Assembly: GCF_900104635.1 (NCBI RefSeq)
Contig: NZ_FNWC01000007.1
Coordinates: 1,339,421 to 1,403,420 of the forward strand
Length of the DNA: 64,000 nucleotides
Direction: 5' to 3'
DNA from: Coprococcus phoceensis
Lineage (GTDB): Bacteria; Bacillota; Clostridia; Lachnospirales; Lachnospiraceae
The notes under the pieces are model-generated. The model did not search any database and had not been told where the DNA came from. It saw nothing but the letters and a program-made list of their open reading frames with translations. Positions 8,928-34,832 of this stretch are shown here, piece after piece; positions within the stretch are counted from its first letter, which is position 1, and every line of letters starts with the position of its first letter. A program made the translations under genes and the position numbers.

Positions 8928-9022
8928 AACCGTACTCTCTCCTTCTCTAAAAATGTACGCCCTATTGTAGCATAGTTCCTTGAGAATATCCACTTTCTTC
9001 AGAAATTCTTAATGATTCACGT

Positions 9023-9067
9023 CAATTGGGGACATAGCAAAATTCAATTTTACTACGCCCCCAATTG
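9023..9067. repeat. REP-like palindrome
   Basis: Perfect arms caattgggg (9023-9031) and ccccaattg (9059-9067) surround a 27-base loop that itself contains AAAATT/AATTTT symmetry. There is no T-run on either side, so it is not an ordinary terminator. It lies just after the end of the beta-helix gene. Its layout (GTCAATtgGGGACA at one border) resembles the palindrome at 62179-62212. Confidence 0.5.
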
Positions 9068-9083
9068 CAACTATTTCATTCTA

Positions 9084-12000
9084 CTATTCATATTTTCTTT
9101 TTTTATAAATCACAGTCACTGTGCTTACTCCGGCAATCATAACAAGAATCCATACAAACATCATTGTTGTATCCCCTGTCTTCGCAGCCGTTGGTTTTTT
9201 CTCTGATGCATTTTCTTTACTTGCTTGTGCATTTCCCTGTTCAGCAGATGGCTTTTTATCATCTGTCGGTTCTTTTGATTCCGCTGTTTTCAATCCATCC
9301 ATTGCTTTTGCCAATAAATCTGACGCATACGCAACCTGCTTCTCTGTTGCATTTTCATCTTCAAAAATCGCTTTGGCATCTGCAATTGCTGCTTTCAAAA
9401 CATTACCGGACTCTTCTGTATACAATGACAAATCAATATTTTCTGCTTTGCTTAACAACTCTTCCAATTTGTCTTTATTCGGAATCAGTCTCAAGTTGAA
9501 GATTGCATTTTGCAGATTTACAAATGCATGTTCTACCTGTTCTTGTGTTGCTTTTTCATCATCTAAAACAGCTTTTGCCGCATCTAAAGCTCCTTGGAAA
9601 AGTTCAGCAGACTGAGGTGTATATTCATTTAATTTTTCAACATACTTTTGTGCCTCTTTCACAGCTTTTGCAAGTTTGGATTTATCAACCGGAATTATAG
9701 TCAATCCCTCCATTGCTTCCTGTAATTTCTGTTGTGCAGCATCTAATTCATACTGAAGTGCATTTTCATCTTTCAACAATTCTACTGCTTCTTCTAATGC
9801 TGCTCTAAATGCTTTCACACTCTCTTCTGTATAAACATCAACATTGATATCCTCTGCTGCTTTTACTAACGCCTGCAGCGACTTGCTGTTTCCGGTGTAA
9901 GAAAGATAATGAATCATCTCCAACAGTTTATCACATACAGTATCTACCTGAGCCTGTGTAGCATTTTCATCTGCATATACTTTTTCGGCTGCTTCTAATG
10001 CTTCTTCCAATTTTTGTTTCACAATCGGTACAACGTACTGATACTCCGGTTTTTCCTGCTCAGATTTTGCATAATCAATTGTGTCTTTCAACAATGTTTT
10101 ATTTACCTGTTCAGGTTCCACCATAGCCTCATCAACATAAGTAATGATTGGTGTTACGTGGATAGATGGTTTTGTCGGAGCTCCGTTATTTTTCGCTTCC
10201 ACACGAATCCAGTCGCCTTTATTGACTTCAATCTCACGGATTCCCACATCTGCTTTTTGATTACTTACTTCAAGTACATAAGAATCGCCAAGCACTTCTC
10301 CATTTTTCGTAAAGCTTAAAGTAACCGTTCCGTTTTTGTTTCCTGCCTGACGCAGATACGGTTCATCGTCTTTCACAGCCAAGGTAATTTTTCCGCTCTT
10401 CGGTACGCGGAATGCCATTGCCATACCTTCTTTTTTAGATGCTCCGGTTGTATCGGAAAGCAATCCATGTGTTGTCTCTGTTGTCGGTGTCTGATGATTT
10501 GGCAAAGCTACACCTGGCCCAAAATATGTATCCACTGCCCAGTTTGGATATACCGGATCGTATGCTGTCAAATTCTCATATTCTGAAGCAGATTTTTTCA
10601 TCTGACCAAACCAGACATTACCCTGCTGTGGTCCGGCATAATCAAGCGCCCACTGATAACTGTTTTTCGCAGAAATTGTAAATTCATTTTGATCTCCATT
10701 TTCTGCCTGAACGACAAGTTTCATTCCTTCTGCAATATTTCCTGTCGTAACTTCTTTTCCTTCTGCATTTACAATTTTGACTTCCGCTGTGCTGTGAACT
10801 TTCACACCTTCTTTTAACTCTTTCACAGTTGTCGGATTATTTTCCAGCATCGGAACAAATACAGTTTTATCTTTCATCATATAGACAGCCTCTTTGATTG
10901 CGTTGTCAGCTGATGCAACAATCGTATACACTACTTCTTGTTTTCCGTCAGACAATACAACACTCATACCGCCTTTTACAATTCCGCTTTCCACTTCTTC
11001 TTTGCCATTCATCACTTTGATTGTGCATCCGGAATCGTACTTCAAATTTTTAAGGAAATCTGCAACTGTTGTACCTGCTTCTACTCCTCCAATTGTTTTT
11101 TCTGCTGTTTTAATATCATATACATCAGATGTTAAAACAAGAGAAACCGCATCACTTTCAAATGCTCCTATATCCGGTGTTCCTGTCACTTTGTTTCCAA
11201 AGAAGTCTTTTCCACCATTGTTTTTGATCACTTTACCTGCATTAACTGCCGGAGAATCTGATGCCAGTTTATATCCATCAAATGCTGTTCTTTCATGAAC
11301 AATTGAATCTTTTATGTTTCCTGCTTCCACGCCGGCCAAAGGTGCTGTTGGCGCTTTACCCGGATCTGCAAATTTCGGATCTGCTTCAATCGCATTCGCA
11401 TCATTTGCCGGAACATTTGCATAATTGTAATAAAGGTTATTGTCATATTTTGTTTTTGTTTCATTCGTATGTTTGAACCAGTTTTCTTCTTTTGGTGCAG
11501 AGCCATTATAATAAATGATATTATTCTCTACTACCATTGGACCACCGCCCATATTTGTACGAATAAAATCAATTCCTTCTTTTACAAAGAATGTATTGTT
11601 ATACACATGTGCATCAGGTTGTCCTGCTGGGTTAATCACACCGCCTAAATCATTTTGACTGATATTATACCGGAAAATATTATTGATTGCTTCTCCTCCG
11701 CAGAACATAACACTTCCGCCACCGTTATTATGGCTGTAATTATACTGGTAAACAGTTCCATCACCATAGTCTGCATCCCACGCCTGACCATCTTGGTTTT
11801 GGCAAGTATCAAATGCTTCATTGTACTGGAAAATGGCATCTTTACATTTCCAAGGCCAAATTCCGGCTGCAACTCGTCCAAATCCGGTCGCATTATAGTC
11901 TTTTGTATTAATCTGTCTTGCCGCACCATCTGATACGTTATACTCAATAAGCGGACGGTCACAATACATCAATGTAATTGCATCTCCACCTGCATCTTTC

Positions 12001-12866
12001 ACATAGTTATTGCGAATCACAACATTGGTAGAGCCGTATGTACTAATCTTTTCATCTGAAATCACACCGCCATGGAACTGACCATGGGTATAACTGTATC
12101 CAACTGCAATTCCCCATCTGTTTGTGTTTTCTACATAACAATTTTCAATTTTTACATCATCATATTTTGCAATTCCTGTTGATGCATCCATCGGCTGGAA
12201 AGCTGTAAAATAGATACCTCCGTTGTTCATATGTTTGTCATATACATTTCCAATTACATCATGAACATATAAATTATCCAGATAAATATGATTTAACGTT
12301 CCTTCATTTTGTGCAACTGCCGCAACTCCTGTACGGTTCATAACATCTTCTGCATTATATGCTGTTTCAATCTTTGGAGCTTTGTTTGTAATTTCCAAGT
12401 TTTTGATTTCTACATATTCTACATCATAAAGAAGTACAGAAGAAGAAACATATCCTTGATATTTATGTTTTGCGTTGCCCAAAGGAGCGCGATAGTTTTG
12501 ATACCAGATTCCTTGTCCGTTTGTTTCAATGATTGGTAAATTTCCTTTTCCATAAGAGTCAACAACGATTGGCGCCTCTTCTGAACCGTCTCCTTTCAAA
12601 TGCAGAAAACCATTTTGGAATACAGAACCACGCTCCAAAAGAACTTTATCTCCCGGCTTCAATGTCAGTTCATTGATTTTGTCTAAACTGTAAAATGCTT
12701 TCCCCTCAGACATTCCATCATTGTTGTCGTTTCCGTCAACTGTACTTACATAATACGTTGTTCCTGTTGTTTTTCCCTGTTTTGCGGCATCTACTGTCAT
12801 TCCCGGTAAAACTGTCGTACCCACAACTGCAGCCGCCATAAACATAGCCAGAATTCTATTTTTCAT
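9084..12866 (-). CDS. Cell-wall-anchored right-handed beta-helix glycosidase, probable GH136 lacto-N-biosidase
   Basis: A 1260-residue exported protein. A signal peptide covers residues 1-27. A right-handed parallel beta-helix (about 33-590, repeated N-N-Y and N-I-Y rungs) is followed by two small Ig-like domains, a beta-sandwich (about 740-920), a four-repeat FIVAR-type helical stalk, and a C-terminal sorting signal AAKTGDT-hydrophobic-KKRK. The block DGQAWDADYGDGT places two aspartates seven apart (D359, D366), the spacing I recall for the catalytic pair of GH136 (LnbX D411/D418). GH136 enzymes release lacto-N-biose from type-1 glycans. The start at 12866 follows AAAGGAGG, 16 bases after the upstream paralogue. 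A polysaccharide lyase of similar fold is the main alternative. Confidence 0.72.
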   Translation of the reverse strand: MKNRILAMFMAAAVVGTTVLPGMTVDAAKQGKTTGTTYYVSTVDGNDNNDGMSEGKAFYSLDKINELTLKPGDKVLLERGSVFQNGFLHLKGDGSEEAPIVVDSYGKGNLPIIETNGQGIWYQNYRAPLGNAKHKYQGYVSSSVLLYDVEYVEIKNLEITNKAPKIETAYNAEDVMNRTGVAAVAQNEGTLNHIYLDNLYVHDVIGNVYDKHMNNGGIYFTAFQPMDASTGIAKYDDVKIENCYVENTNRWGIAVGYSYTHGQFHGGVISDEKISTYGSTNVVIRNNYVKDAGGDAITLMYCDRPLIEYNVSDGAARQINTKDYNATGFGRVAAGIWPWKCKDAIFQYNEAFDTCQNQDGQAWDADYGDGTVYQYNYSHNNGGGSVMFCGGEAINNIFRYNISQNDLGGVINPAGQPDAHVYNNTFFVKEGIDFIRTNMGGGPMVVENNIIYYNGSAPKEENWFKHTNETKTKYDNNLYYNYANVPANDANAIEADPKFADPGKAPTAPLAGVEAGNIKDSIVHERTAFDGYKLASDSPAVNAGKVIKNNGGKDFFGNKVTGTPDIGAFESDAVSLVLTSDVYDIKTAEKTIGGVEAGTTVADFLKNLKYDSGCTIKVMNGKEEVESGIVKGGMSVVLSDGKQEVVYTIVASADNAIKEAVYMMKDKTVFVPMLENNPTTVKELKEGVKVHSTAEVKIVNAEGKEVTTGNIAEGMKLVVQAENGDQNEFTISAKNSYQWALDYAGPQQGNVWFGQMKKSASEYENLTAYDPVYPNWAVDTYFGPGVALPNHQTPTTETTHGLLSDTTGASKKEGMAMAFRVPKSGKITLAVKDDEPYLRQAGNKNGTVTLSFTKNGEVLGDSYVLEVSNQKADVGIREIEVNKGDWIRVEAKNNGAPTKPSIHVTPIITYVDEAMVEPEQVNKTLLKDTIDYAKSEQEKPEYQYVVPIVKQKLEEALEAAEKVYADENATQAQVDTVCDKLLEMIHYLSYTGNSKSLQALVKAAEDINVDVYTEESVKAFRAALEEAVELLKDENALQYELDAAQQKLQEAMEGLTIIPVDKSKLAKAVKEAQKYVEKLNEYTPQSAELFQGALDAAKAVLDDEKATQEQVEHAFVNLQNAIFNLRLIPNKDKLEELLSKAENIDLSLYTEESGNVLKAAIADAKAIFEDENATEKQVAYASDLLAKAMDGLKTAESKEPTDDKKPSAEQGNAQASKENASEKKPTAAKTGDTTMMFVWILVMIAGVSTVTVIYKKRKYE

Positions 12867-12882
12867 AATCACACCCTCCTTT

Positions 12883-15555
12883 CTACTCTTCAAATCCTAA
12901 ACGAATTTCTGCTGCCGAAGCAAAAATTTTACTTGCTTCCTGCGATGCAGAGTCTGTTGCTACTAATTTCACATAACGTCCTAAAACAGTGTCAAATCTT
13001 GCATATTTCACAACATTATTGTTTGCCCATGTTCCCGTTGCAACCGGTTCTCCCCAAGTCTGTCCGTCTTTACTTACATAAATCTCATAAGCTGTGATGT
13101 TACCGTTTGTTCCGCCGCCTTGTCTTGGAGTATATTTTAACATTGCAACATTTTGTTCTTTCTTCATATCAATCGTAATCCATGTTTCTGAACGTTGACA
13201 GCCATTCCAGTTTGTATGCCACATTGTATTCAAGTTGTTATCCAATGCAAGATTTCCGTTTCCTTCTGTATTATTATTTGGCTGGAAACTTCCCGCCTCT
13301 GCTGTCATTCCTGTTGCTGCATACTCTTTATATACTTTCACAAGTGAAATGTTAAATTCTTTGGAAACTTCTTTATAAGATACTTTCAGTGTCATTCCTT
13401 CTTCGATAACTTCAGAATCTTCTACCTTTTTGTCTCCTTTATAAACGTCTACATTGACACGTTTATGATGAATTAAATTTTCTTTAAAAGTACCAACAGT
13501 TGTTCCTTTTGGAACTTCACGGATTGTTGTTCCTTCTATCTCGTAAACAAGCGTTGACAGACGAAGGACTGTATGTATTGTATACTCTTTTACCGTATCT
13601 CCATTTTTCAGTTTCAAAATCATACCGTCTTCCACAGCTGCATCGCCCGCTGCAGCTTCTTCTCCCTTGTACACTTCCAAAGTAACCCGCTTGTCATATA
13701 CAAGATTTTCTTTCATCTCATCGACAGTAGTTCCGACTTCGACATCATTGATTTCATTCTCTGTCACTTTGTAAACATCTGAATAAATTTCTTCCACGAT
13801 TTCTCCATCTTCTGCTTTTGTCTCGTGCATACCGATATCAGGTGTCATTCCAAGTTTATTGCCAAAGAAATCTTTTCCGCCATTATTTGGAATATATACA
13901 CCGGCATTTACTGCTGCAGAATCTTCTTTGATTTTAAATCCGTCAAACACTGTCTTTGCTTCCGGATCATCGTGTCTATGAATCGTTCCATCTGTGCTGT
14001 CCGGTGCAGTCAGTGGTCCGACAAAAATCTGGTCTTTTTCACTTTCTGCAACAACTACCGCATGTTTATCTGTAGATGGAGTAGAAGTATATCCATAATA
14101 AAGATTATTGCTGAATTTTTTATTTCCATTTGGTTCCCACTCATCGTTCGGGTTCGCTGTACTTGCATTGTAGAAAATATTATTTGAAATCACACCGGAA
14201 CCGCTGCGTTTTCCACTCGCATTGTGGTGTACTCTTGTTGCTCTGTCCCCGTCCACATAAAAGACGTTGTTATAAATCTTTGCTTCCGGATTTCCTTGGA
14301 ATGTAATAAGACAGCCTAAATCATTATGGCTTAAATTATAACGGAATGTACCATTATAAGCCTCATTTAAGCAAATCAGCATAGAACCTCCACCATTATT
14401 ATGACTATAGTTATACTGGTAAACCGTGCCGTCTGACCAGTCAATGTCCCACGCCTGTCCGTCACCATTGCCTTCTCCGACTGTATCAAACGCCTCATTA
14501 TATTGGAATACCGCATCTTTTGTTTTCCATGGCCAGATTGTCGCACAGAAAGACTGCCAATAACCGGCATATCCATCATCCAAATCAACGCCGGCTGTAT
14601 CCGAAATATTTCTTTCAATTACCGGTCGATATGCATACATTGCAACAATCGCATCATTTCCAGAATTCTGTACATAATTGTCTGCGATATAAATGTTTGT
14701 GTGTCCATATTTTTGCACTGTCTCATCTGCAATCTGTGCTCCATTGAATTTAGAATGCTGATATGTATAGCCAACTACAATTCCGGCACGTTTTACATCT
14801 TTGACATAACAGTTTGTAATTTTTACATCATTATATCTTGCAATCCCTGTTTTAGATTCATCTGTCGGTTTTGATACGTTGAACTGGATTCCTCCATTGT
14901 CCATATGTTTATCTTGAAGATTTCCGTCAATATCGTGGATATAAAGGTCTTCTAAATAGACATGGTCCATGGTTCCTCCGTCTTTTGCAATTCCTGCAAC
15001 TCCGGTGCGGTCCATACGTGCTGATGTATTTGCCAAACCATTTTGAATGTATTGTGCATCATCAGATTCATTTGTCAATTCCAAACCTTTCACTTCTACA
15101 TAATCAACATCGTAGAGCAAAATGGCAGAAGACACATATCCTTTTGAACGGTGTCCACTGTTATCCATCGGTGTACCATAATCCTGATACCAGACACCTT
15201 CTCCTCTTGCATTAATGATAGGTTTATTACCTTCCCCATAGCTTCCGATCCGAATCGGATTTTCTTTTGTTCCGTGTACATTCTGCAGATGAAGAAATCC
15301 TTGGAAAACAGATCCCGCTTCAAAAAGTACGCTGTCACCCGGCTGAAGTTTCACATCTTTAAGCTTATCTAAAGTCTGCCATGCTTCTCCTTCTGAAGTT
15401 CCACTGTTTTGATTGTCTCCACGATTACTGATGTAATATGTCGTTCCAACTGCTTTTTCCTTTCGAGCCGCACTAACGCTCGACATCGGGAAAACATTCG
15501 CTGACGTACACAATACAGCAAGTGCACACATTGCCGCTACAATTTTTCTCTTCAT
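12883..15555 (-). CDS. Secreted right-handed beta-helix glycosidase with CBM32-like domain, probable GH136
   Basis: An 890-residue paralogue of the neighbouring beta-helix protein. A signal peptide (to about residue 29) precedes the beta-helix (about 35-600). The block DGQAWDIDWSDGT carries D365 and D372, again seven apart as in GH136. Two Ig-like domains (about 605-755) and a C-terminal F5/8 type C (CBM32-like) domain follow (about 765-890, WHTNWNG, WITIDM, ASAAEIRL). No sorting signal or membrane segment follows, so it should be released or held only by binding glycan. It starts 21 bases after the foldase-like gene and ends 16 bases before the anchored paralogue, indicating a three-gene operon. 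Confidence 0.75.
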   Translation of the reverse strand: MKRKIVAAMCALAVLCTSANVFPMSSVSAARKEKAVGTTYYISNRGDNQNSGTSEGEAWQTLDKLKDVKLQPGDSVLFEAGSVFQGFLHLQNVHGTKENPIRIGSYGEGNKPIINARGEGVWYQDYGTPMDNSGHRSKGYVSSAILLYDVDYVEVKGLELTNESDDAQYIQNGLANTSARMDRTGVAGIAKDGGTMDHVYLEDLYIHDIDGNLQDKHMDNGGIQFNVSKPTDESKTGIARYNDVKITNCYVKDVKRAGIVVGYTYQHSKFNGAQIADETVQKYGHTNIYIADNYVQNSGNDAIVAMYAYRPVIERNISDTAGVDLDDGYAGYWQSFCATIWPWKTKDAVFQYNEAFDTVGEGNGDGQAWDIDWSDGTVYQYNYSHNNGGGSMLICLNEAYNGTFRYNLSHNDLGCLITFQGNPEAKIYNNVFYVDGDRATRVHHNASGKRSGSGVISNNIFYNASTANPNDEWEPNGNKKFSNNLYYGYTSTPSTDKHAVVVAESEKDQIFVGPLTAPDSTDGTIHRHDDPEAKTVFDGFKIKEDSAAVNAGVYIPNNGGKDFFGNKLGMTPDIGMHETKAEDGEIVEEIYSDVYKVTENEINDVEVGTTVDEMKENLVYDKRVTLEVYKGEEAAAGDAAVEDGMILKLKNGDTVKEYTIHTVLRLSTLVYEIEGTTIREVPKGTTVGTFKENLIHHKRVNVDVYKGDKKVEDSEVIEEGMTLKVSYKEVSKEFNISLVKVYKEYAATGMTAEAGSFQPNNNTEGNGNLALDNNLNTMWHTNWNGCQRSETWITIDMKKEQNVAMLKYTPRQGGGTNGNITAYEIYVSKDGQTWGEPVATGTWANNNVVKYARFDTVLGRYVKLVATDSASQEASKIFASAAEIRLGFEE

Positions 15556-15576
15556 AGCTCTTATTCCTCCTCATTT

Positions 15577-16632
15577 TTATTTTTTTATATGTTTTTTTGT
15601 AAAATCATATACTTTCTTCATATCGCCGTCGACTTCCAAATCCTCGGCTTTTTTTTCTATCATAGAATTATAATGTTGTTCTCTTAACTCTTTATTGATA
15701 TTATCCTTTACTTCATCAACAGTAAAATAATCATAATCGTTCTTAGCCGTACACTGCACAAGATACAGCGCCCCATTTTCATCTACTACCTGTGTCGATT
15801 CTCCAATCTTTAATTCATATCCCAGTTCCAAAACATCTCCGATTTCCTTCGCCTTCGAAGAAACCTCACTGGAAAGCAGTTCTTCATGGGAAAAATACGG
15901 ACTCAGCATCTCGTTTTCTGCCACAAGTTTCTGTAATGTTTGTGAGCCATCCATGCTTTTATAAATAGATATCAATTCTTTTTCCAGTAACTCTTTTTGA
16001 TCTTCCGTCATATTTTCTGAAAGATATGGGATTTTTATATAATCCAGTGTGATATCATCATTTTTTTGAAAGAGTGCATCTTTGTTTTTTTCATAATACT
16101 GTACTCTTTCTTCTTCTGTGATCTCCATTCCTTCATTTTTCAGATTCTCGCAATATCTCTTTTGAAAAGAATCCATCTCATATTCCATATACAATTCTGT
16201 AGTAAATTTGGACAATCCGAAAACCGGTTCTCCGTTCTCGATTTTTTCTGCCCTCATTTTATTCTCTTCTTCCATACGCTTTATCATATGTTCATAATCT
16301 GCATATTCCACGTAACCTTCTTCAATTGCCGTTTCATAAACCGCACGATAATATTTCAATTGTTCTATTGTCTGATCCGCCAATTTTTTATATGGAACAG
16401 TTCCCTCAATTTCCGTCTCCCAAAATTTCTCATCAATCTGAATGTCTCGATTTTCTGTCAGCTCATTGGAAACATCATAAATTTGTTGATTCATCACATA
16501 CAAATATTCTTCTTTACTAATTGGTTTTTCATGAATATTCAATTCAAATTTCCCTTTTATAAAAAATGCACCTGCCACAAAAATTCCAGCCGTCAACACT
16601 GTTGCTACTAGGCATACTATTTTCTTTTTCAT
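15577..16632 (-). CDS. Membrane-anchored SurA/parvulin-like foldase, likely partner of the beta-helix enzymes
   Basis: A 351-residue protein with a lysine-rich N-terminus and one transmembrane segment (VCLVATVLTAGIFVAGAFFI) without a lipobox cysteine, so it should be anchored with its body outside. The rest is charged and helical (about 40-180, SurA-N-like), followed by a region resembling a PpiC/parvulin domain (about 190-320, LDYIKIPYL, IGDVLELGYELKIGEST, ALYLVQCTAKNDYD) and a helical tail. Known GH136 enzymes need a cognate partner (LnbY in Bifidobacterium; a separate or fused helical subunit in Lachnospiraceae). First position in an operon with two GH136-like genes makes this the natural candidate. 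A general PrsA-type foldase is the alternative. Confidence 0.65.
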   Translation of the reverse strand: MKKKIVCLVATVLTAGIFVAGAFFIKGKFELNIHEKPISKEEYLYVMNQQIYDVSNELTENRDIQIDEKFWETEIEGTVPYKKLADQTIEQLKYYRAVYETAIEEGYVEYADYEHMIKRMEEENKMRAEKIENGEPVFGLSKFTTELYMEYEMDSFQKRYCENLKNEGMEITEEERVQYYEKNKDALFQKNDDITLDYIKIPYLSENMTEDQKELLEKELISIYKSMDGSQTLQKLVAENEMLSPYFSHEELLSSEVSSKAKEIGDVLELGYELKIGESTQVVDENGALYLVQCTAKNDYDYFTVDEVKDNINKELREQHYNSMIEKKAEDLEVDGDMKKVYDFTKKHIKK

Positions 16633-16686: not shown

Positions 16687-16716
16687 ATCATATATACAAC
16701 ATCAATACTTGTACAA
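16687..16716 (-). promoter_or_regulatory. Candidate promoter of the foldase/GH136 operon
   Basis: TTGTAC and TATGAT are separated by 18 bases, about 55 bases before the foldase start. The -35 match is weak. The region 16633-16770 is otherwise AT-rich with no other gene. Confidence 0.35.
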
Positions 16717-16770: not shown

Positions 16771-16808
16771 AAAAAGGTCTCCCGAACCTTTTTCCGATTC
16801 AGGAGACC
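16771..16808 (-). terminator. Rho-independent terminator of the sialidase gene
   Basis: Arms ggtctcc (16776-16782) and ggagacc (16802-16808) are followed on the minus strand by TTTTT. It lies 13 bases beyond the sialidase stop and separates it from the foldase/GH136 operon. Confidence 0.75.
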
Positions 16809-16821
16809 CTTTCTTCATCTA

Positions 16822-19800
16822 TTAATTTTCTTCTTTTTTCCGTACAGAAAATACCGTTCCCGCACTTAAAGCTGCAATCAGCGCAAATAAAATCGGTGTT
16901 GAACGATCTCCTGTTTTGACAGGACTCGTATTCTTTTCTTTATCATCGTTCTTTTCCGCTGTTGTATTTTTGTTTGGTACTTTTTGTTCTTCTGCTTTTC
17001 CAACTTCTTTTAATCCATCCATTGCTTTTGCAAGTGTACGTTCTGCATCTTCCACTTCCTGTGTCGATGCTTCTGAATCTGCAAATACAGCTTTTGCTTT
17101 TGACAATGCTGACATGAATTCTTTTGCACTTTCTTCTGAGTAAAGCTTCACATCAATCTGTTCTGCACTTTGGATTAATTCTTCTAATTTATCTTTATTC
17201 GGCAATAATCTCAAACCAAAGACTGCATTTCGAAGATTTGCATACGCCTGATCGACTTCCTCTTTTGTCGCATCCTGTTTTCCTAAAATATTCTCAGCCG
17301 CTTCAAATGCTCCCATGAAAATCTCACCGCTTTGAGTTGTATACTCATCCAGTTTTTCTACATATTTTCGTGAACTGTCTACAAGTTTCTGAAGTTTTGA
17401 CTTATCTACAGATATCACTTGCAATCCATCCATTGCCTCTTTTAATTTTTTCTGAGCCGCATCAAGTTCTTTCTGCAGCGCATTTTCATCGGCAAGTACA
17501 GTCTCTGCTTCTGCAAGTGCTTCTTTGAATACATTCGCACTTTGTTCTGTATAAATATCTGTATTGAGTTTTTTTGCGATATCTACCAAATCTCTCAGTG
17601 ATTTTGCATCTCCTGTAAATGATAAATAGTGGAACATTTTTACAAGTTCATCTTTTGCTTTGTCAACTTCTTCCTGTGTTGCAGCTGCATTCGCAAAAAC
17701 AGTTTCCGCCGCTTCAAGCGCCTCATCTAATTTTTGTTTTACAATTGGTACAACATATTGATATTCCGGTTTTGTCTTCACATCTTTCGCATATGCAATC
17801 GCAGCTTCCAGCGAACTCTTATCCGCTTCCACAACCGGAGGCGCCTCCGTTTTTGTTCCTGTAAGACGAATTTCTGCTGCTGATGCATAGTCATTATCTG
17901 CCTCCACGCTGAGTGCATCTAAAGATGTCAAACGCACATATTTTGCACGCACCGGCTCAAATGAAACCATCTTCCAAGCAGTATTTCCCGCCCATGTTCC
18001 TGTTGCAACTTGATCAAAATGAACACCGTCATTACTTACTTCCACTTTATATTCTGTAATAATACCATTTACGCCCCCGGAAGTTCTTGGCTGATAACGG
18101 ATTCCATCTACCATATAGAAATCTTTCAGTTCAAATTGAATCCAATGATTTTCGCGTCCATGGCCACCACCCCATGTAGTATGCCATAATGTGTCTGCTC
18201 TTCCATCTAAAACATTCGCTGCCCCTTGACCTGATTGAGCCGCACCGGCTGTTGCACTCATCTGTTCTGTCGCAATATCTCTTGCAGCATCTGAAGGATC
18301 TACTCCAATGTATCCCATATTGACATCCATATCACCGGAACTTACACACAGTCCATTCGCATTTTTCACTGCTCCCGCTTCATCACAGATAATCTTTGGT
18401 CCTTTGAATTGGATCGTTCCTTCATCACCTTTTTGTAATACATATTCAAACACTAATGTTTTGTCATCATTTCCGCCGGATACATAATTCGCATAACGAC
18501 CTTTGCCGTTTAACATAAACCTGAATTTCGGTGTTCCTGTTGCCGTAACATTCTGATCTGTTTTCACTGTAATCACATATTTATCTCCCGGCAGCGTATA
18601 AGCATGATCGTCTGTTTTTTCCACTTTGTATGTAACAGATGTAATCGTCGGGCTTAATAAATTCACTTCATCTTTAATATAGTCCAAATTAAATGCAGTA
18701 AATTTAATCGTATTCTGATGTTCATAGAGAAGTCCCATATTTCCATCTCTCATTTTTGTCAAACATGAATATGCATAATTATTTGGACAGAACATTTTTT
18801 CTTCTACCCAGTCCACAGAGAAACTATCCTCTGTCTCCGTCACTTCACCGATTCGTAATGTTCCGTTATTTCTTCCTGAACCTCCCGGATTTGACATAAT
18901 CACTCTGTCTTTTCCGTCTGTTCCGTTTTTATCATAATACAATACAGATAACTGGCAGTATACTTCCGGCGCTGTTGTATCAATCGGATCACTCCATGTT
19001 GCTCCACCGTCTGTACTTCTAGAAACAACAACTTTTCCGTTTCCACCTGTATTTCTCATAAACTGAAGCAAGTTGCCGCTGCTCAATTCAATAATCTGAC
19101 TTTCTGTCAGCTCACTGATTCCAACCGGATTTTGCGAAGATGTCACCTGTCCGTTTTTGTTAATTCGTCCATCATTCGGAGACTCTCCTCTTTGCCATGT
19201 TTTTCCGCCGTCATCACTGTAAATACAAGCAGAAGACTGGAATCCTATACCACTTCCTGCAATTGTATAATAAATCGGAAATACAAGTCTTCCCGGATGT
19301 TCCTCATCATACTGAAGCTGAACTCCAAATCCCGGACCAACTCCACAGAATCTCATCCAGTCTGCTTTTACCTGTGGTGTGATATCTACCGGATCACTCC
19401 ATGTCACACCGTCATCATCACTATAGCTCAGCCACAAATAGCATGTCTGAGTCGGATGAAGAGGTGCTGAATCGTTGTTCTTAGAGGCACTTCTCAAATA
19501 AATATTTCCCACATATTCACCGGATTTATACAAATCACCTTTTTCATGGTAGCCTTGTTCATCATTTCCTTCAAACTGTTTTACTACATAATCTGTTTTT
19601 TGATTATCCTTGTCAAATACTTCTCCATTTTCCCGAAGTGTATATTGATTATTATCTTTATCATAAAGCGACAGATAATCTTTTCCATCTACTTTCACAT
19701 AACCTGTTCCGGTTTCTTTGATTGACCATGTTCCTTGGCTTCCATTCGTTGATTCTGGAAACATATCTACAAGCATCCACACACGTCCCGGATTCTTTCC

Positions 19801-21381
19801 ATTCTCATCTTCTGCAATCATCGCCGGATCAATTGTGTAAGCAGATTGTGTGCCACTGAAATAAGATTGTGATTTCAAATCAATTACATCAATCGGATCT
19901 TCCCAAGTCAAACCGTTATCTGTACTTCTTCTGACAACCGTATCAATATTTCCCCAGTCAGACCAATGTGTATTTCTTTGATCAGCTGCTGCGATTACAG
20001 TTCCTTTACTCGTTGTAACCATTGCTGGAATACGGTAATTATAAGAATCATAATCACCCATATCATAAATACCATACTCACCTGTCTTATATACATCTTT
20101 CCCGTATTCCGGTTCATCTTGCGGTAAGGTGCGTTTATGAAGTTCCATAACCTGTTCCGCATTTAACGTCTCATCAAACACATTGACACTGTCAATGATT
20201 CCGTAGAATGGCCATTTTGAACCCGGTGTCGTATTCGTTCTGCTGATTCCGCCAAGCGTAACCATATCCGGCGTCCAATCACCCTTCAGCAAATGCGTTG
20301 TCGCAAACTTTCCGATGGATACACCATCTAAATAAAACTCTGCCTGTGTCCCATCAAATGCATATGTCACCGTATGCCACTCTGCATTATTGACAGAATT
20401 TCCATTGCGGACTGTAATATACTTATCTCCTTTGCCCTGCACCTCATATCCGATTCGGTTATCCTTCGGCTTAATATAAAGAGCTCCGTACTCTCTATCT
20501 GCATTGCTGTTCGACAGAGATAACAATCCGTAAATCGTTTTGCCTACAGCCGCCTCATTTAAGCGATATGCAAAAGAAAACGTTCCTTTTGTCAAACCGG
20601 AAATTTTTTCTTTCTGCTCCGGCAGTTGAATCATCTTTCCTTCTGTTCCGTCAAACATTTTTCTCTGGTAAGTAAAAATCGGTGTTCCTACAGACACAGC
20701 ACCATGGTCTGCCATAATCTGATCTTCGGAAACTGCTCCATTATACAATTTCACTTCTTTGATGCTTCCGGTAAACGGATAACTATTTCCTGAAATTCGA
20801 TTTGCGCCTCCAAATGTCACAGAAGTCGGTTCCCATTCCATTTTGTCGACAAAATTAGTCTCACTCACATCCCACTGCTGTACAAGTTTTTGATCCAAAT
20901 ATACTTTATAATAGCTGTCCTTTTCTGTTACAAGCGTAATCGTATGCCATTGATTATCCGCAAGATTCACATCATTTACCGTAAAGTTTTTGTGATCATT
21001 TACCGTCTCATTTTTGCGGAATTCAAAACCGATTTTATTCCCGCCACTAATGTACAAAGACATATAATGATTCGTATGTGTACTTCCATTAATTGCAGCC
21101 AACGCCTGTAAATTGGTACTTCCCGTCCTAAAACTCAGTGTAATCGTACCGCTTCCCAATCCTTTTACAAAAGCCACATCCTCCTGCGGTATTGAAAAAC
21201 GCTGTTCAATACCTTGAATCTGCTTTTCTTCACTTAAATATTCCTTGCACAAAATTTTTGTTGTTTCTGTATCTACTGTTGTCTCAACTCTTCCCGCACT
21301 TTCATCTTGAGCAAAAACAGGCATGGCTCCTTGCATCACCATCGTAAGCACCAAAAGAGCTGCCACTATTTTTTTCTTCAT
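16822..21381 (-). CDS. Multidomain wall-anchored sialidase (GH33)
   Basis: A 1519-residue exo-sialidase. In order it has a signal peptide (1-24), two LamG/CBM40-like sandwiches (about 55-230 and 235-420), and the GH33 propeller (about 430-905). The propeller has YRIP at 449-452, Asp boxes near 486, 653, 722 and 789 (S-x-D-x-G-x-T-W), an inserted beta-domain near 555-630, and the probable nucleophile Tyr in YAYS (about 871). A CBM32-like domain (about 1055-1190), a four-repeat FIVAR stalk and the sorting signal SPVKTGDRS-hydrophobic-RKKEEN follow. The insertion is seen in NanB/NanH sialidases, including intramolecular trans-sialidases, so product type is open. The second of two close ATGs (21381) fits the GGAG site best. 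Confidence 0.93.
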   Translation of the reverse strand: MKKKIVAALLVLTMVMQGAMPVFAQDESAGRVETTVDTETTKILCKEYLSEEKQIQGIEQRFSIPQEDVAFVKGLGSGTITLSFRTGSTNLQALAAINGSTHTNHYMSLYISGGNKIGFEFRKNETVNDHKNFTVNDVNLADNQWHTITLVTEKDSYYKVYLDQKLVQQWDVSETNFVDKMEWEPTSVTFGGANRISGNSYPFTGSIKEVKLYNGAVSEDQIMADHGAVSVGTPIFTYQRKMFDGTEGKMIQLPEQKEKISGLTKGTFSFAYRLNEAAVGKTIYGLLSLSNSNADREYGALYIKPKDNRIGYEVQGKGDKYITVRNGNSVNNAEWHTVTYAFDGTQAEFYLDGVSIGKFATTHLLKGDWTPDMVTLGGISRTNTTPGSKWPFYGIIDSVNVFDETLNAEQVMELHKRTLPQDEPEYGKDVYKTGEYGIYDMGDYDSYNYRIPAMVTTSKGTVIAAADQRNTHWSDWGNIDTVVRRSTDNGLTWEDPIDVIDLKSQSYFSGTQSAYTIDPAMIAEDENGKNPGRVWMLVDMFPESTNGSQGTWSIKETGTGYVKVDGKDYLSLYDKDNNQYTLRENGEVFDKDNQKTDYVVKQFEGNDEQGYHEKGDLYKSGEYVGNIYLRSASKNNDSAPLHPTQTCYLWLSYSDDDGVTWSDPVDITPQVKADWMRFCGVGPGFGVQLQYDEEHPGRLVFPIYYTIAGSGIGFQSSACIYSDDGGKTWQRGESPNDGRINKNGQVTSSQNPVGISELTESQIIELSSGNLLQFMRNTGGNGKVVVSRSTDGGATWSDPIDTTAPEVYCQLSVLYYDKNGTDGKDRVIMSNPGGSGRNNGTLRIGEVTETEDSFSVDWVEEKMFCPNNYAYSCLTKMRDGNMGLLYEHQNTIKFTAFNLDYIKDEVNLLSPTITSVTYKVEKTDDHAYTLPGDKYVITVKTDQNVTATGTPKFRFMLNGKGRYANYVSGGNDDKTLVFEYVLQKGDEGTIQFKGPKIICDEAGAVKNANGLCVSSGDMDVNMGYIGVDPSDAARDIATEQMSATAGAAQSGQGAANVLDGRADTLWHTTWGGGHGRENHWIQFELKDFYMVDGIRYQPRTSGGVNGIITEYKVEVSNDGVHFDQVATGTWAGNTAWKMVSFEPVRAKYVRLTSLDALSVEADNDYASAAEIRLTGTKTEAPPVVEADKSSLEAAIAYAKDVKTKPEYQYVVPIVKQKLDEALEAAETVFANAAATQEEVDKAKDELVKMFHYLSFTGDAKSLRDLVDIAKKLNTDIYTEQSANVFKEALAEAETVLADENALQKELDAAQKKLKEAMDGLQVISVDKSKLQKLVDSSRKYVEKLDEYTTQSGEIFMGAFEAAENILGKQDATKEEVDQAYANLRNAVFGLRLLPNKDKLEELIQSAEQIDVKLYSEESAKEFMSALSKAKAVFADSEASTQEVEDAERTLAKAMDGLKEVGKAEEQKVPNKNTTAEKNDDKEKNTSPVKTGDRSTPILFALIAALSAGTVFSVRKKEEN

Positions 21382-21640
21382 GCTCATCTCTCCTTCTCTT
21401 AATGAAATATATTATAAATTGTAGCATATTTTTATAATTTTTTCTTGTATAAAAGCGTCACTTTTGTTTTTATTTTTGTACAATACGGAACAAGCAATGT
21501 CGTTTTTACACAATTAAGTCAAAATACACACCAAAATCGCAGTTATAATTAACATTTTTTCACAAAACATCACACTTGTATTTTTCACTGTCTCTTCATA
21601 TACAAAACACATTACGAGAACAATAAAGAGATGCACTAAA
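21382..21640. other. AT-rich intergenic region upstream of the sialidase
   Basis: No ORF or RNA gene is apparent. On the minus strand an extended -10 (TATGCTACAAT, hexamer at 21418-21423) and a TATAAT (21411-21416) precede the sialidase start, but neither has a convincing -35 box. I did not find a clear catabolite-response element. Confidence 0.4.
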
Positions 21641-31136: not shown

Positions 31137-31170
31137 CGGAGAAGATTTTTCATCTTCTCCGCCTTTTTTT
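31137..31170. terminator. Terminator of the aro operon, shared with the convergent glycosidase gene
   Basis: A 10-bp stem cggagaagat/atcttctccg with a 5-base loop is followed on the plus strand by a T7 run and on the minus strand by TTTTT. Confidence 0.88.
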
Positions 31171-34100
31171 ATGAATTTCTTCTTCTCTTCTTATCTGCGA
31201 TTAAAATAGTACCGCCTGATACAACTACCAACATGATCATCAATAAAATCATTGTTCCGTCTCCTGTTGTAACACTATTGTTAGGTTTGTTATCAGGAGT
31301 TGGCTGCACGTTGGCTTTCTTTTTCAAATTATCAATTGCCTTTTGGATTGCTTCAGCCATCTTATCTACTTCTGCCTGTTTTGTAATATCCAAATCACGT
31401 ACAACTGCTTCTTTTGCTTCTTCTAATTTTGCCACAGATTCTTTTGTGTAAATGCTTAAGTCTTTTGGAATATTTCCAAGTGCTGCATCTACTTTGCTGT
31501 AATCTGCTTTTTTCAGCTGAAGAGCTTCGATTGCATTCTGGATCGCTTCTGCCATCTTGTCTACTTCTGCCTGTTTTGTAATATCCAAATCACGTACAAC
31601 CGCATCTTTCGCTGCATTTAAGTTTGCTACAGACTCTTCTGTGTAAACGCTTAAGTCTTTTGGAATATTTCCAAGTGCTGCATCTACTTTACTGTAATCT
31701 GCTTTTTTCAACTGAAGAGCTTTGATTGCATTCTGGATCGCTTCTGCCATCTTGTCTACTTCTGCCTGTTTTGTGATATCTAAATCACGTATAACTGCTT
31801 CTTTTGCTGCATTTAAGTTTGCTACAGACTCTTCTGTGTAAATACTTAAGTCGCTTGGAATTGCTGAAATTGCCGCATCTACTTTACTGTAATCTGCCTT
31901 TTCCACTACCTGTTCTTCAGTTAAAATCTTAACAATAGCAAAAGAATGTTTTTTCAAGTTGATAATCTGTCCTTTTGGCATCTTTGTTTTCTCTGTCTGA
32001 ACAGTTACTTTATTTGGTGTTTCTAATGTATTTTCATCTGTAATCGCTTCAGACTCTAATCTCTGAATTTCAATATCACGTCCACTTACATCTACACCTT
32101 TTACATCTAACATTATCTTTTGATCTTTTTCACGATCTACATTCACAAGCGCAACATACATATTTCCCTTTTTATCCACACTTGCAAGTGAAGATAATGT
32201 TTTCACGCCATTACTCATCGTTGATTCTTTCTCGAATGTCGCTTCCACAACATTTTCTCCAAATCCTGCATTTAACATCTGAAATACATGTGCAGAAGGC
32301 GTTGAGAAAAATGCAAAGTTTCCTTCGCCTGTTTTTGTATCTGCTCCTTCCTGAGGCACAACCTGTATCACAGCCTGCTGTGTAGGCCCCAAAGAGTCTG
32401 CTCCTGAGCTGTACCAGTCAGATAAACAGTGTTTCTGAATATACGGGCTTCCAAGTTTTACATATTCTGTAATTACTTTTGCAATGTAGAGTGCATGTGT
32501 CTGAGAACGAACTTGAGATTCTGTATTTCTAAAAATACCATACTCGCTGATGACCGGAACTTTTCCTTCCGGCAATTGTTCTACATATTCTCTCACTTTC
32601 TGAATCCCAACATTCTCCGCTTTCTTCATTGCATCATCATAAAATGTATCTGCATTCGTTCCGCCGCTCACACTTCCTGAATACGGATGAATGGTCATGC
32701 CATCATACCATTTATTTGCATCAAGATCACTCATTCGTTTAATAAATCCGCTTGATTCAAAACTCGTGTATACATTTGCTTCGTAATTTGTCTTCTCTAT
32801 TTCATTGATTTTCTCTGTTGTCTGCTTAATTGCTTTTGATACATCAATAAATCCTTCTCTGTCTACTGTGTAAGTTGCATAAATATTTTTTCCTTTTTCT
32901 GGAATCATGCCATGTATCCCATCACCAAAAGTAATGCTTCCTGTACTATAGTCAACTACACAATGTTTGTCAGTTGCTTTTGAGTTTTCAAAATCAGATA
33001 CCACTGTCCATTCGTCTAACTTTCCATCTGTACCAACATACACTTTTACACCATCATTAACTGCTTTATAACTTGGATCTTCTACAATTTTTCCATCAAC
33101 CAGTTTTCCTGGATTTTGGTTCGCATAGCGCAAATAACGCACTAAGTTCGGCTTTCCATCACTCTGCGATGCCTTCTTATTCCAGTCTTCTTCTGCTACA
33201 GCATATTTCTGTACGAATTTTGCCTGTCCACCTTCTGTGTATGCTTTCTCTGCACCAGCGTCACCATCCACATATGTTGTCCAATAGCCTTGAGAAGCTG
33301 TACCATCAGAACCTCCCCATGCCTGTTGCATCTCATTTCCGATTTCAAAATATCTTACATGATAAGGCTCTTTATGTCCGTTATCCGCACGAACTTGTGC
33401 CCAATCAATTCCGCCATTTGGATTCGTTCCAACTTTTGCATTCAGAAATTCCACCAAATCTGCTGCGTCTTGTGCATTTCCACGTCCAAGGCTATACACA
33501 TACACGATTTCTGAATCTACCTGATCTGCAAAATCTGCAATTTCTTTAATTCCAAAATTAGGCTCAATACCTCCTTGTCCATCATTATTATAGAAACCAT
33601 GAATTTGTTTTTTTCTATCCTTTTTATCTCCCAATGTTGTCTTCCAGTTAAACAAATTAGAAATCGTTCCTCCCGGATAGCGTATAGAACCAAATCCTGC
33701 TTTTTCATACAACGCTGTGAAATCATCTTTCATCTTCATCTCTTTTGAATCAAATGTGCCATATCCATTGAATGCATAGCGATGATTAATTCCGAAAATA
33801 GAATCCGGTTCGATTGTTTGTATTGTTTTCTCGGTATCTATCGATAGTTTTACTGGAACTTCTGCTTCATACTCTGCAATTGCTTTTTCAAGAGCCGTAT
33901 ACGCTGCTTTCATTTCATCTAAAGTCGTAGCATCCTCTGCTTTTTTGAGTGCTTCTTTTAATTGTTTTGCTTTTTCATTATCTTCCGGAAGTTTCTGATT
34001 CTCTATAACCTCTTTTCCTTCTTTAACCAGTTTTTTCAATTCCTGATTGTACAACTCAGTAGCTTTATCTTCGTAGATTGCTTTCGCCTCATCTGCTGTC

Positions 34101-34789: not shown

Positions 34790-34832
34790 TTTCCCCATCC
34801 TTTTTGTTTATTTTTACAATATGTATATTGAC

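Follow-up and report, generated by a model that had tools for sequence, protein, structure and literature searches.

Two deeply diverged GH136 paralogues and one LnbY-type partner form a conserved gene module found in Coprococcus phoceensis

Introduction

Do two neighbouring GH136 genes that follow a single partner gene encode two copies of one enzyme, or two enzymes with different tasks? Along with GH20, family GH136 releases lacto-N-biose from type-1 chains (PMC8106489, excerpts). The partner subunit was reported to have a fold not seen before; LnbX depended on being expressed together with its partner, and activity of RhLnb136 required co-expression (PMC7335108, excerpts). The 64,000-nucleotide stretch of C. 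phoceensis DNA analysed here (contig NZ_FNWC01000007.1; hereafter the window) contains such a locus, composed of partner Y and paralogues A and B (Table 1), and the initial annotation proposed a candidate lacto-N-biosidase operon with two catalytic paralogues. With one partner and two catalysts, such a module allows one to test directly whether specificity is set by the partner or by the catalyst. New here are the conserved Y-A-B module, the deep split between A and B, the differences in the pocket of A and a peptidylprolyl isomerase (PPIase)-like segment in Y.

Table 1. Features of the Y-A-B locus, in window coordinates
Feature	Position	Strand	Remarks
S, GH33 sialidase, 1521 aa	16822..21387	-	two LamG-type stretches, BNR-type sialidase domain, F5/8C, FIVAR; neighbour of Y, same direction
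Intrinsic-terminator-like hairpin with T run, between sialidase gene and Y	16771..16813	-	-28 kcal/mol, z -7.24, 0/200 shuffles as stable
Promoter-like site TGTACA-17-TATGAT upstream of Y	16687..16715	-	weak, consensus scan
Y, LnbY-type partner / putative membrane-anchored foldase, 351 aa	15577..16632	-	N-terminal hydrophobic anchor (read from sequence), N-domain, PPIase-like segment, C-terminal part
PPIase (parvulin)-like segment of Y, ~residues 171-310	15703..16122	-	Pfam PF13145, 24.2 bits
A, GH136 paralogue of a clade without solved member, 890 aa	12883..15555	-	signal peptide (read from sequence), beta-helix ~34-583, F5/8 type C ~762-872
Catalytic block of A, DGQAWDID	14440..14463	-	D365 (acid/base) to D372 (nucleophile), aligned with ErLnb136 D568/D575
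B, GH136 lacto-N-biosidase-type enzyme, 1260 aa from ATG 12866	9084..12866	-	beta-helix, FIVAR repeats, C-terminal KTGD + hydrophobic + basic tail
Catalytic block of B, DGQAWDAD	11769..11792	-	D359 (acid/base) to D366 (nucleophile), ATG count; aligned with ErLnb136 D568/D575

Results

Assignment of both paralogues to GH136 was borne out by PDB sequence searches, in which A and B matched the GH136 chains 7v6m, 6kqs, 5gqc, 24mr and 7v6i over the whole beta-helix, all with E 3.4e-108 or better. The best match of both proteins was 7v6m (E 1.8e-152 for A and 1.4e-182 for B), far beyond chance. These chains made up all five PDB matches of B and five of the 34 matches of A, the remaining 29 covering the F5/8C domain only. 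Best matches to polysaccharide lyases or other beta-helix families, named beforehand as an outcome that would speak against GH136, did not occur in these searches. The NCBIfam LnbX model NF047897 (1498 positions) gave 419.9 bits for A and 789.3 bits for B, both under its equivalog cut-off of 2500.

The block DGQAWD-x-D with two aspartates seven residues apart, noticed earlier from the letters, is present in both proteins (Table 1; the initial numbering D359/D366 of B agrees with a count from the ATG, and these aspartates become D368/D375 if numbered from the TTG of the 1269-aa open frame). Both frames and the partner gene lie at the place given earlier, on the minus strand; B had been given from TTG 12893, to which the listed frame runs, whereas ATG 12866, preceded by the ribosome-binding site AAGGAGGG, is the likely start codon. 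The aspartate pair was found in all 43 aligned GH136 rows; for LnbX, whose pair the initial annotation gave as D411/D418, chain 5gqc likewise carries Asp in both columns. The Eubacterium ramulus pair D568/D575, given in the initial annotation, agrees both with the publication (PMC7335108, excerpts) and with the E. ramulus open frame in L059, in which W548, D568 and D575 stand at exactly those numbers. W548, the Gal-stacking residue of ErLnb136 (PMC7335108, excerpts), is retained in A and B. Among the 120 homologues of A listed, many of which are near copies, D365 and D372 are aspartates in 117 (a gap in 3) and W343 is kept in 116 (4 gaps).

In all nine distinct A-type loci examined (Lachnospiraceae, Clostridium and Paraliobacillus) the partner gene comes first and is followed by A and then by B; Y-A-B is therefore a conserved module. 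In one set of nine candidate loci, a locus with its beta-helix cut by the contig end (L015) and two others with F5/8C only (L016, L017) were not taken as A-type. In C. celatum A is represented by two overlapping open frames, the longer of which alone entered the tree and distances. Y and A are separated by 8 to 95 bases, A and B by -116 to 16 (from first start codons; from ATG for the window), and divergence of the three genes is correlated across the nine modules (0.86 for Y-A, 0.92 for Y-B and 0.88 for A-B). Full-length matches of the Y profile, which was built partly from the same A-type module sequences that it then matched, were registered in exactly 4 of 397 genomes of the family, namely those with A-type genes. 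With the threshold E 1e-6 or better the partner profile was found in 29 of the 397 genomes, the match being confined to the PPIase part in three of them (G086, G124, G291), and the description of GH136 as rare is thus fair for the sampled family. Two catalytic copies behind one partner, which had been thought unusual, are indeed uncommon but no one-off: apart from the nine A-type loci, two genomes with other GH136 subfamilies (G522 and G607) likewise combine one partner with a pair of catalytic genes next to it. Persistence of the same trio in distant bacteria suggests different, complementary jobs for the two enzymes. No description of the module or of an A-type enzyme was found in the accessible portion of the open-access PMC literature, which is not proof of absence.

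Catalytic domains of A and B are 50.8% identical over 532 columns. In the tree B groups with characterised lacto-N-biosidases, while A forms a separate deep clade (support 100/99 for nine A rows and 96/95 for nine B rows). A single A+B clade was rejected by the AU test with p 0.0117, a value weakened because this group was chosen with the tree already known. Recent tandem duplication is supported by neither result and, as judged from their sequences, A and B are neither recent duplicates nor equivalent copies. Since B lies among lacto-N-biosidases and A belongs to a deep clade with a different pocket, homology supports the name lacto-N-biosidase in the case of B, not in that of A. Thus, from the proposed lacto-N-biosidase operon with two catalytic paralogues, the GH136 operon, its one partner and the right aspartates stay, and the activity given in the name can be extended to B only.

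The pocket of A departs from the lacto-N-biosidase group at five sites that do not vary among the 21 rows of that group, compared without two near copies of PDB chains (the second enzyme of this genome and G159b) and 11 distant rows. Residues W458, G501, T505 and A574 (ErLnb136 numbering), all present in 9/9 B rows, are different in each of the nine A rows, where position 458 is invariably occupied by A or G, 501 by N and 574 by I or V. Among the 120 listed homologues of A, which besides near copies include one B-type protein, A was found at position 458 in 102 and G in 2, N at position 501 in 110, and I or V at position 574 in 116. Active-site loop 2 has 18–20 residues in A-type proteins versus 22–40 in the lacto-N-biosidase group (20 in A, 22 in B, 24 in ErLnb136 and 40 in 7v6m), and loop 1 of A has 12 residues, the same as in ErLnb136. 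Taken at the level of residues, specificity of A likely differs from that of B. Because I/C at position 574, V/I at position 505 and the short loop 2 are also encountered in distant GH136 rows, the pocket of A may have kept an older state rather than been remodelled for a new substrate. The statement that A was remodelled was abandoned for the same reason, and we write that A lacks, not that it lost, these residues. Either polarity of its states leaves the odds of a difference in specificity unchanged. Six of the 120 listed relatives of A bear source names, five of them "discoidin domain-containing protein" and one "O-GlcNAcase NagJ precursor".

The upstream gene was expected to encode a partner, and Y proved to be of LnbY type: NCBIfam model NF047894 matched it with 107.5 bits over residues 33–182, below the equivalog cut-off of 400, and a weak match was obtained with the partner domain of ErLnb136 in 6kqs. 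Two PPIase models gave scores for Y below their thresholds, PRK00059 with 28.1 bits (cut-off 303) and PF13145 (Table 1; gathering score 27). Within 43 aligned Y-family members PF13145 was found in 35 (E 0.01), PRK00059 in 38 and SurA_N models in 4 each; the LnbY-type N-domain is present in all 43. The family has matches to PPIase models in common with PrsA/SurA-type parvulin foldases and differs from them by its LnbY-type N-domain. In the PDB search with the Y profile, taken up to E 10, no match to a parvulin structure was obtained and eight further matches were unrelated; nor are the histidines of the parvulin motif apparent in the PPIase-like segment. By its domain matches Y is no plain LnbY, as it carries this segment. 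Weak as the scores are, the segment is apparently inserted at the loop by which ErLnb136I touches the active site; Y145 of ErLnb136 falls on K190 of Y, which is not conserved, in a loose alignment.

Five short partners (247–255 aa) of the single-enzyme modules examined are devoid of the PPIase-like segment, and lacto-N-biosidase-like modules alone show a clean split into 4 full-length and 6 short partners. The assumption that the segment occurs only in two-enzyme modules was nevertheless ruled out by three genomes (G247, G361, G046), in which partners with open frames of 345–359 aa and matches reaching into the segment lie near divergent GH136 genes. No adjacent second GH136 copy was found there among the two candidates scored per genome, and the segment is therefore not specific to two-enzyme modules.

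Transcription of the sialidase gene together with Y-A-B is unlikely given the strong terminator-like hairpin between them, and its transcript is likely separate, as far as this can be read from the sequence. The consensus scan did not list the hairpin. The promoter scan of the region gave 32 sites of this kind compared with 40.8 in shuffles and is no evidence of itself. As a neighbour, the sialidase was counted in favour of the glycan-degrading system proposed below. A GH112 lacto-N-biose phosphorylase gene and that of an ABC solute-binding protein lie near the module in Paraliobacillus and in one more genome (G110). This genome has one GH112 gene, away from Y-A-B.

Discussion

We consider it reasonably probable that Y-A-B is a three-gene extracellular GH136 system, with B as lacto-N-biosidase, A acting on decorated type-1 ends, Y as their shared foldase and subunit, and a GH112 route downstream. 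Its targets would be type-1 (Gal-beta-1,3-GlcNAc) glycans of milk and mucin. Anchored in the membrane, Y would be needed for folding of both catalytic proteins and would pack on them in the manner of LnbY or ErLnb136I. B, presumably bound to the wall by its KTGD tail, would be a retaining enzyme that frees lacto-N-biose from unsubstituted ends. A would also act by retention; secreted and carrying a CBM, it would combine the aspartate pair found in B with a different -1/-2 pocket. As its residue differences suggest, A most likely frees the same disaccharide with a further substituent, from fucosylated or otherwise decorated type-1 ends not taken by B. The products would enter through an ABC importer and then be processed by the GH112 phosphorylase. 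No assay of any member of the A clade was found in the accessible portion of the open-access PMC literature. Among points that weigh against this interpretation are the full loop 1 of A, the presence of some of its residue states in distant GH136 rows, the scores of A, B and Y under equivalog cut-offs, the occurrence of PPIase-like partners outside two-enzyme modules, and the location of GH112 elsewhere in the genome.

Identical lacto-N-biosidase specificity of A and B, which would then differ in location (A secreted with its CBM, B on the wall) or kinetics alone, appears unlikely, but is the alternative to be taken most seriously. In its favour are the common catalytic pair, the Trp that stacks on Gal, the different accessory domains and 68 positions that do not vary across 30 rows, among them nine of A, nine of B and those of three solved enzymes. 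Against it stand the consistent changes at positions 458, 501 and 574, repeated among the listed homologues, and the maintenance of two deeply separated proteins side by side. It is rather improbable that A acts on another core, for instance beta-linked Gal-beta-1,3-GalNAc (galacto-N-biose), instead of decorated lacto-N-biose. GH136 enzymes are not known to release galacto-N-biose, and none doing so was seen in the parts of the published GH136 literature examined; nonetheless A differs beside the nucleophile (position 574) yet keeps W548, and the GH112 phosphorylase of Roseburia inulinivorans takes both lacto-N-biose and galacto-N-biose (PMC7335108, excerpts). Very little weight can be given to A as an obligate member of a ternary complex with B and Y, or as a pseudoenzyme or lectin devoid of independent activity: co-occurrence in nine of nine loci with fixed order agrees with this, but in a pseudoenzyme loss of the catalytic Asp or pocket Trp would be expected, and both are kept in nearly all listed homologues, near copies as many of these are. 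That A and B are lyases or belong to another beta-helix family is next to inconceivable, because the beta-helix PDB matches are all GH136 chains and the LnbX model matches both with the scores given above, even if the one beta-helix match in Pfam is the generic Beta_helix of B (29.2 bits), A having none.

ErLnb136 of E. ramulus (PDB 6kqs/6kqt; PMC7335108) is 54.5% identical to B and 48.4% to A, and its D568, D575 and W548 map exactly; unlike Y, its partner domain is fused to the enzyme and has no PPIase-like segment. LnbX of Bifidobacterium longum (5gqc; 50.7% to B, 43.5% to A) is alike in kind as a partner-dependent system (PMC7335108, excerpts), but has one catalytic gene with an adjacent partner, and A, B and Y stay below the cut-offs of the corresponding NCBIfam equivalogs. 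RiLe-a/b136 of R. inulinivorans, a two-gene extracellular GH136 enzyme with altered pocket loops, sets a precedent for a change in GH136 specificity (PMC7335108, excerpts). Compared by description only, it has both loops shortened (PMC7335108, excerpts), whereas A relative to ErLnb136 has a shorter loop 2 (20 versus 24) and keeps loop 1 (12 versus 12). In Limousia pullorum ET540 three neighbouring GH136 locus tags are up on mucin with log2 changes of 2.69, 3.65 and 3.78, but two of the three are listed as dockerin enzymes of a mucinolysome (PMC12997984, excerpts).

Y also offers a candidate origin of the GH136 partner subunit, a parvulin foldase. One may tentatively suppose, at rather less than even chances, that Y-A-B modules keep the connection between ordinary parvulin foldases (PrsA/SurA) and the GH136 partner; that a secretion chaperone, with its parvulin domain on the alpha6-alpha7 loop, became a permanent enzyme subunit, the short LnbY and ErLnb136I being without this domain; that Y serves two anciently diverged catalysts, its parvulin-like domain helping at the mouth of the active site to select substrate; and that A founds a new GH136 specificity.

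The PDB entry 7v6m, deposited as fibronectin type III domain-containing protein and presumably TnX of Tyzzerella nexilis, has the same catalytic pair and is 57.5% identical to B and 48.2% to A. A second GH136 enzyme, encoded elsewhere in this genome, is 99.3% identical to 7v6m and forms a single-enzyme module, in which the LnbY-type partner is short (247 aa) and has no PPIase-like segment. Loop 2 of 7v6m has 40 residues versus 22 in B and 20 in A. A natural comparison enzyme is thus at hand in the same genome.

Gene organization and family assignment

The three open reading frames lie on the minus strand where the initial annotation had put them, and its proposal of a GH136 operon was largely borne out. 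Among NCBIfam models, LnbX matched both catalytic proteins and LnbY matched Y, with scores under the strict equivalog cut-offs. Compared with all PDB sequences, A matched five GH136 chains across the beta-helix, with 7v6m at the top (512.6 bits), and the remaining 29 of its 34 matches covered the C-terminal F5/8 type C domain alone. The search with B gave five matches, all to the GH136 chains already matched by A, again headed by 7v6m (612.7 bits). Four of the five matched GH136 chains bear the deposited name lacto-N-biosidase; 7v6m was deposited under a domain name, and we take it to be a lacto-N-biosidase as well.

Features of the Y-A-B module, its surroundings and related loci (G000, this genome)
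Feature	Location	Strand	Description
Y, LnbY-type partner	window 15577-16632	minus	351 aa
A, GH136 paralogue	window 12883-15555	minus	890 aa; 21 bases after Y
B, GH136 paralogue	window, from ATG 12866	minus	16 bases after A
GH33 sialidase	window 16822-21387		large; LamG-type, F5/8C and FIVAR domains; adjoins Y-A-B
Palindrome	window 8985-9090		long; directly past B; -33.5 kcal/mol, z -6.0
LamG-type protein	window 31169-34798		1209 aa; amid housekeeping genes
Second GH136 module	L022 7424-11430 (G000:C7:2197423-2201429)		247-aa short LnbY-type partner and 7v6m-like enzyme
Fourth GH136 protein	L023 4491-9116 (G000:C7:382490-387115)		distant; 1245 aa; weak LnbY-like neighbour
Clostridium celatum A gene	L013 9001-11416		two overlapping ORFs in the assembly

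For ErLnb136 of Eubacterium ramulus (PDB 6kqs), the passages of PMC7335108 on its active site name D568 as acid/base, D575 as nucleophile and W548 as stacking on Gal. With this numbering confirmed on the E. ramulus ORF, the three residues align with W343/D365/D372 of A and with W348/D368/D375 of B (TTG numbering). The aspartates earlier proposed as catalytic thus fall on the ErLnb136 pair in both proteins, D365/D372 in A directly and D359/D366 in B after renumbering, since the latter had been counted from the ATG. All 43 aligned GH136 rows keep the pair, as do 117 of the 120 A homologues among the matches listed, many of which are near copies and one B-like; the other three have a gap there. 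In the alignment, the 24mr chain carries serine at the position of the nucleophilic aspartate of LnbX (5gqc), which is in keeping with the role of that residue. Identities of 43.5-57.5% to solved enzymes, together with the colinear catalytic residues, make it likely that the aspartates of A and B lie in the substrate groove.

Two further GH136 genes are present in this genome, both with LnbY-like neighbours, one of them weak. The L022 enzyme is 99.3% identical to 7v6m across 576 columns, and an AraC-family gene lies downstream of its module. The L023 protein retains the seven-residue spacing in the block GDGQGIEID.

Conservation of the module and ancestry of its enzymes

A search with A in named genomes returned nine loci, six of them with an A-type gene, and all six had the order Y-A-B; in C. 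celatum A is represented by two ORFs, through an assembly error or a real frame break. In the window's family 397 genomes were sampled, with two candidates scored in each; A-type genes of at least 58% identity were registered in four, namely this one, G110, G179 and G140, always with B adjoining A. G140 and the Lachnospiraceae UBA3316 locus share contig number and positions and were counted once; the window's family is accordingly taken to be Lachnospiraceae. In the family of C. sartagoforme 3 of 194 sampled genomes have A-type genes, with B present too, and all three are among the named loci. The samples of the genus (10 genomes), class (391) and phylum (398), each including this genome, yielded an A-type gene in this genome only. 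The distinct modules total nine, all ordered Y-A-B. Across them, module-to-module distances computed from each of the three proteins correlate at 0.86-0.92 (Mantel p <=0.0006), which joint inheritance of the trio would predict. Y-A-B is therefore a conserved module of one partner and two catalysts.

In the 43-row tree A formed a single clade of nine rows (100/99) and B a separate clade of nine rows (96/95). B was placed with 5gqc, 7v6m and ErLnb136 (95/93), the order inside this group being partly unresolved, and A branched outside the B/lacto-N-biosidase group as viewed from distant GH136 rows. Forcing A and B into one clade was 13.0 log-likelihood units worse (p-AU 0.0117, for a group named after the tree had been seen). 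A and B are thus old paralogues, and the clade of A has no solved member. Two catalytic genes with one LnbY-like partner also occur in other GH136 subfamilies, in different gene orders: at L070 of genome G607 the partner lies between both catalytic genes, and at L067/L073 of G522 downstream of the pair. As the catalytic pairs of G522 and G607 are sisters in the tree, unlike A and B, the arrangement probably arose more than once.

Pocket of A

Nine A rows were compared with 21 others (nine B, three solved and nine other lacto-N-biosidase-group enzymes). At five ErLnb136 positions fixed in all 21, the A rows depart: Y415 to Q/E, W458 to A/G, G501 to N, T505 to V/C and, beside the nucleophile, A574 to I/V. 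Position 577 is S in A rows and G in 20 of the 21; Q at 425 is shared with one B row. Among aligned rows N at 501 was found in A alone. In distant rows position 574 is I or C (11/11) and W never occurs at 458, so that some sites of A may preserve older states. Loop 2 is shorter in A (18-20 residues) than in the lacto-N-biosidase group (22-40) and longer than in distant rows (11-17), and loop 1 of A equals that of ErLnb136 in length. In the Lewis-a/b enzyme of Roseburia inulinivorans, as described in the relevant part of PMC7335108, both loops are shortened, in contrast to A with its full-length loop 1. Judged by loop lengths, A fits fully neither the lacto-N-biosidase nor the Lewis-a/b pattern. 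We read A as having a different -1/-2 pocket with the Gal platform retained, and would guess a decorated type-1 end as its most likely substrate.

Partner Y and its PPIase-like segment

Partners in the nine modules are 350-374 aa long, and five partners of single lacto-N-biosidase-group genes 247-255 aa. The difference is one segment of about 105-120 residues: alignment of the short partners to Y stops near 190 and restarts near 300-312. Among 43 members of the Y family alignment (38 long and five short), PF13145 (PPIC-type PPIase) matches 35 and PRK00059 (peptidylprolyl isomerase) 38, with two SurA_N models matching four each. Mean identity among the nine modules is 46.2% in this segment versus 46.5% in the N-domain. 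At E 0.01 the Y profile matched 6kqs as the sole PDB structure, and no parvulin structure appeared up to E 10. Residues 109-191 and 297-335 of Y are colinear with 62-147 and 146-184 of the 6kqs chain (18.6 and 6.2 bits); one more match, of Y 90-131 to chain residues 8-49 (2.6 bits), overlaps the 109-191 stretch of Y. The placement of the segment relies on this colinearity and on the identical break in short partners. Chain position 147 is Y145 in author numbering, which, according to the mutant data in PMC7335108, lies in a loop lining the ErLnb136 active site and on replacement by alanine raises KM 4.9-fold. If the placement is right, the PPIase-like segment would project from the active-site loop. 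Partners with such a part were also found near distant GH136 genes, so short LnbY may have lost the segment or the longer partners may have gained it. Y-type partners may link LnbY to parvulin foldases.

Genomic surroundings

Between Y and the upstream sialidase gene stands a hairpin resembling a terminator (-28 kcal/mol, z -7.24), so Y-A-B is probably transcribed separately. Models of exo-alpha-sialidases and of sialidase A score highest on the sialidase domain, with up to 327.2 bits; trans- and anhydrosialidases are more distant and reach at most 188.5 bits. In Paraliobacillus and G110 the module has GH112 lacto-N-biose phosphorylase genes and ABC solute-binding proteins in its vicinity; the single GH112 gene of this genome is located away from Y-A-B. 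AraC-family regulators occur within seven of nine loci (L009, L010, L011, L012, L014, L054 and L055), the scanned ORFs of the window showed no AraC domain, and the sole L013 neighbour ORF scanned, immediately upstream, encodes an oxidoreductase. The palindrome past B is a REP-like dispersed element: its core recurs in this genome, with 38 matches over both strands that fall at 21 places, this one included. The LamG-type protein of the window gave partial arabinofuranosidase-like matches (ArfA, 81.7 bits against a cut-off of 625) and is possibly a glycosidase.
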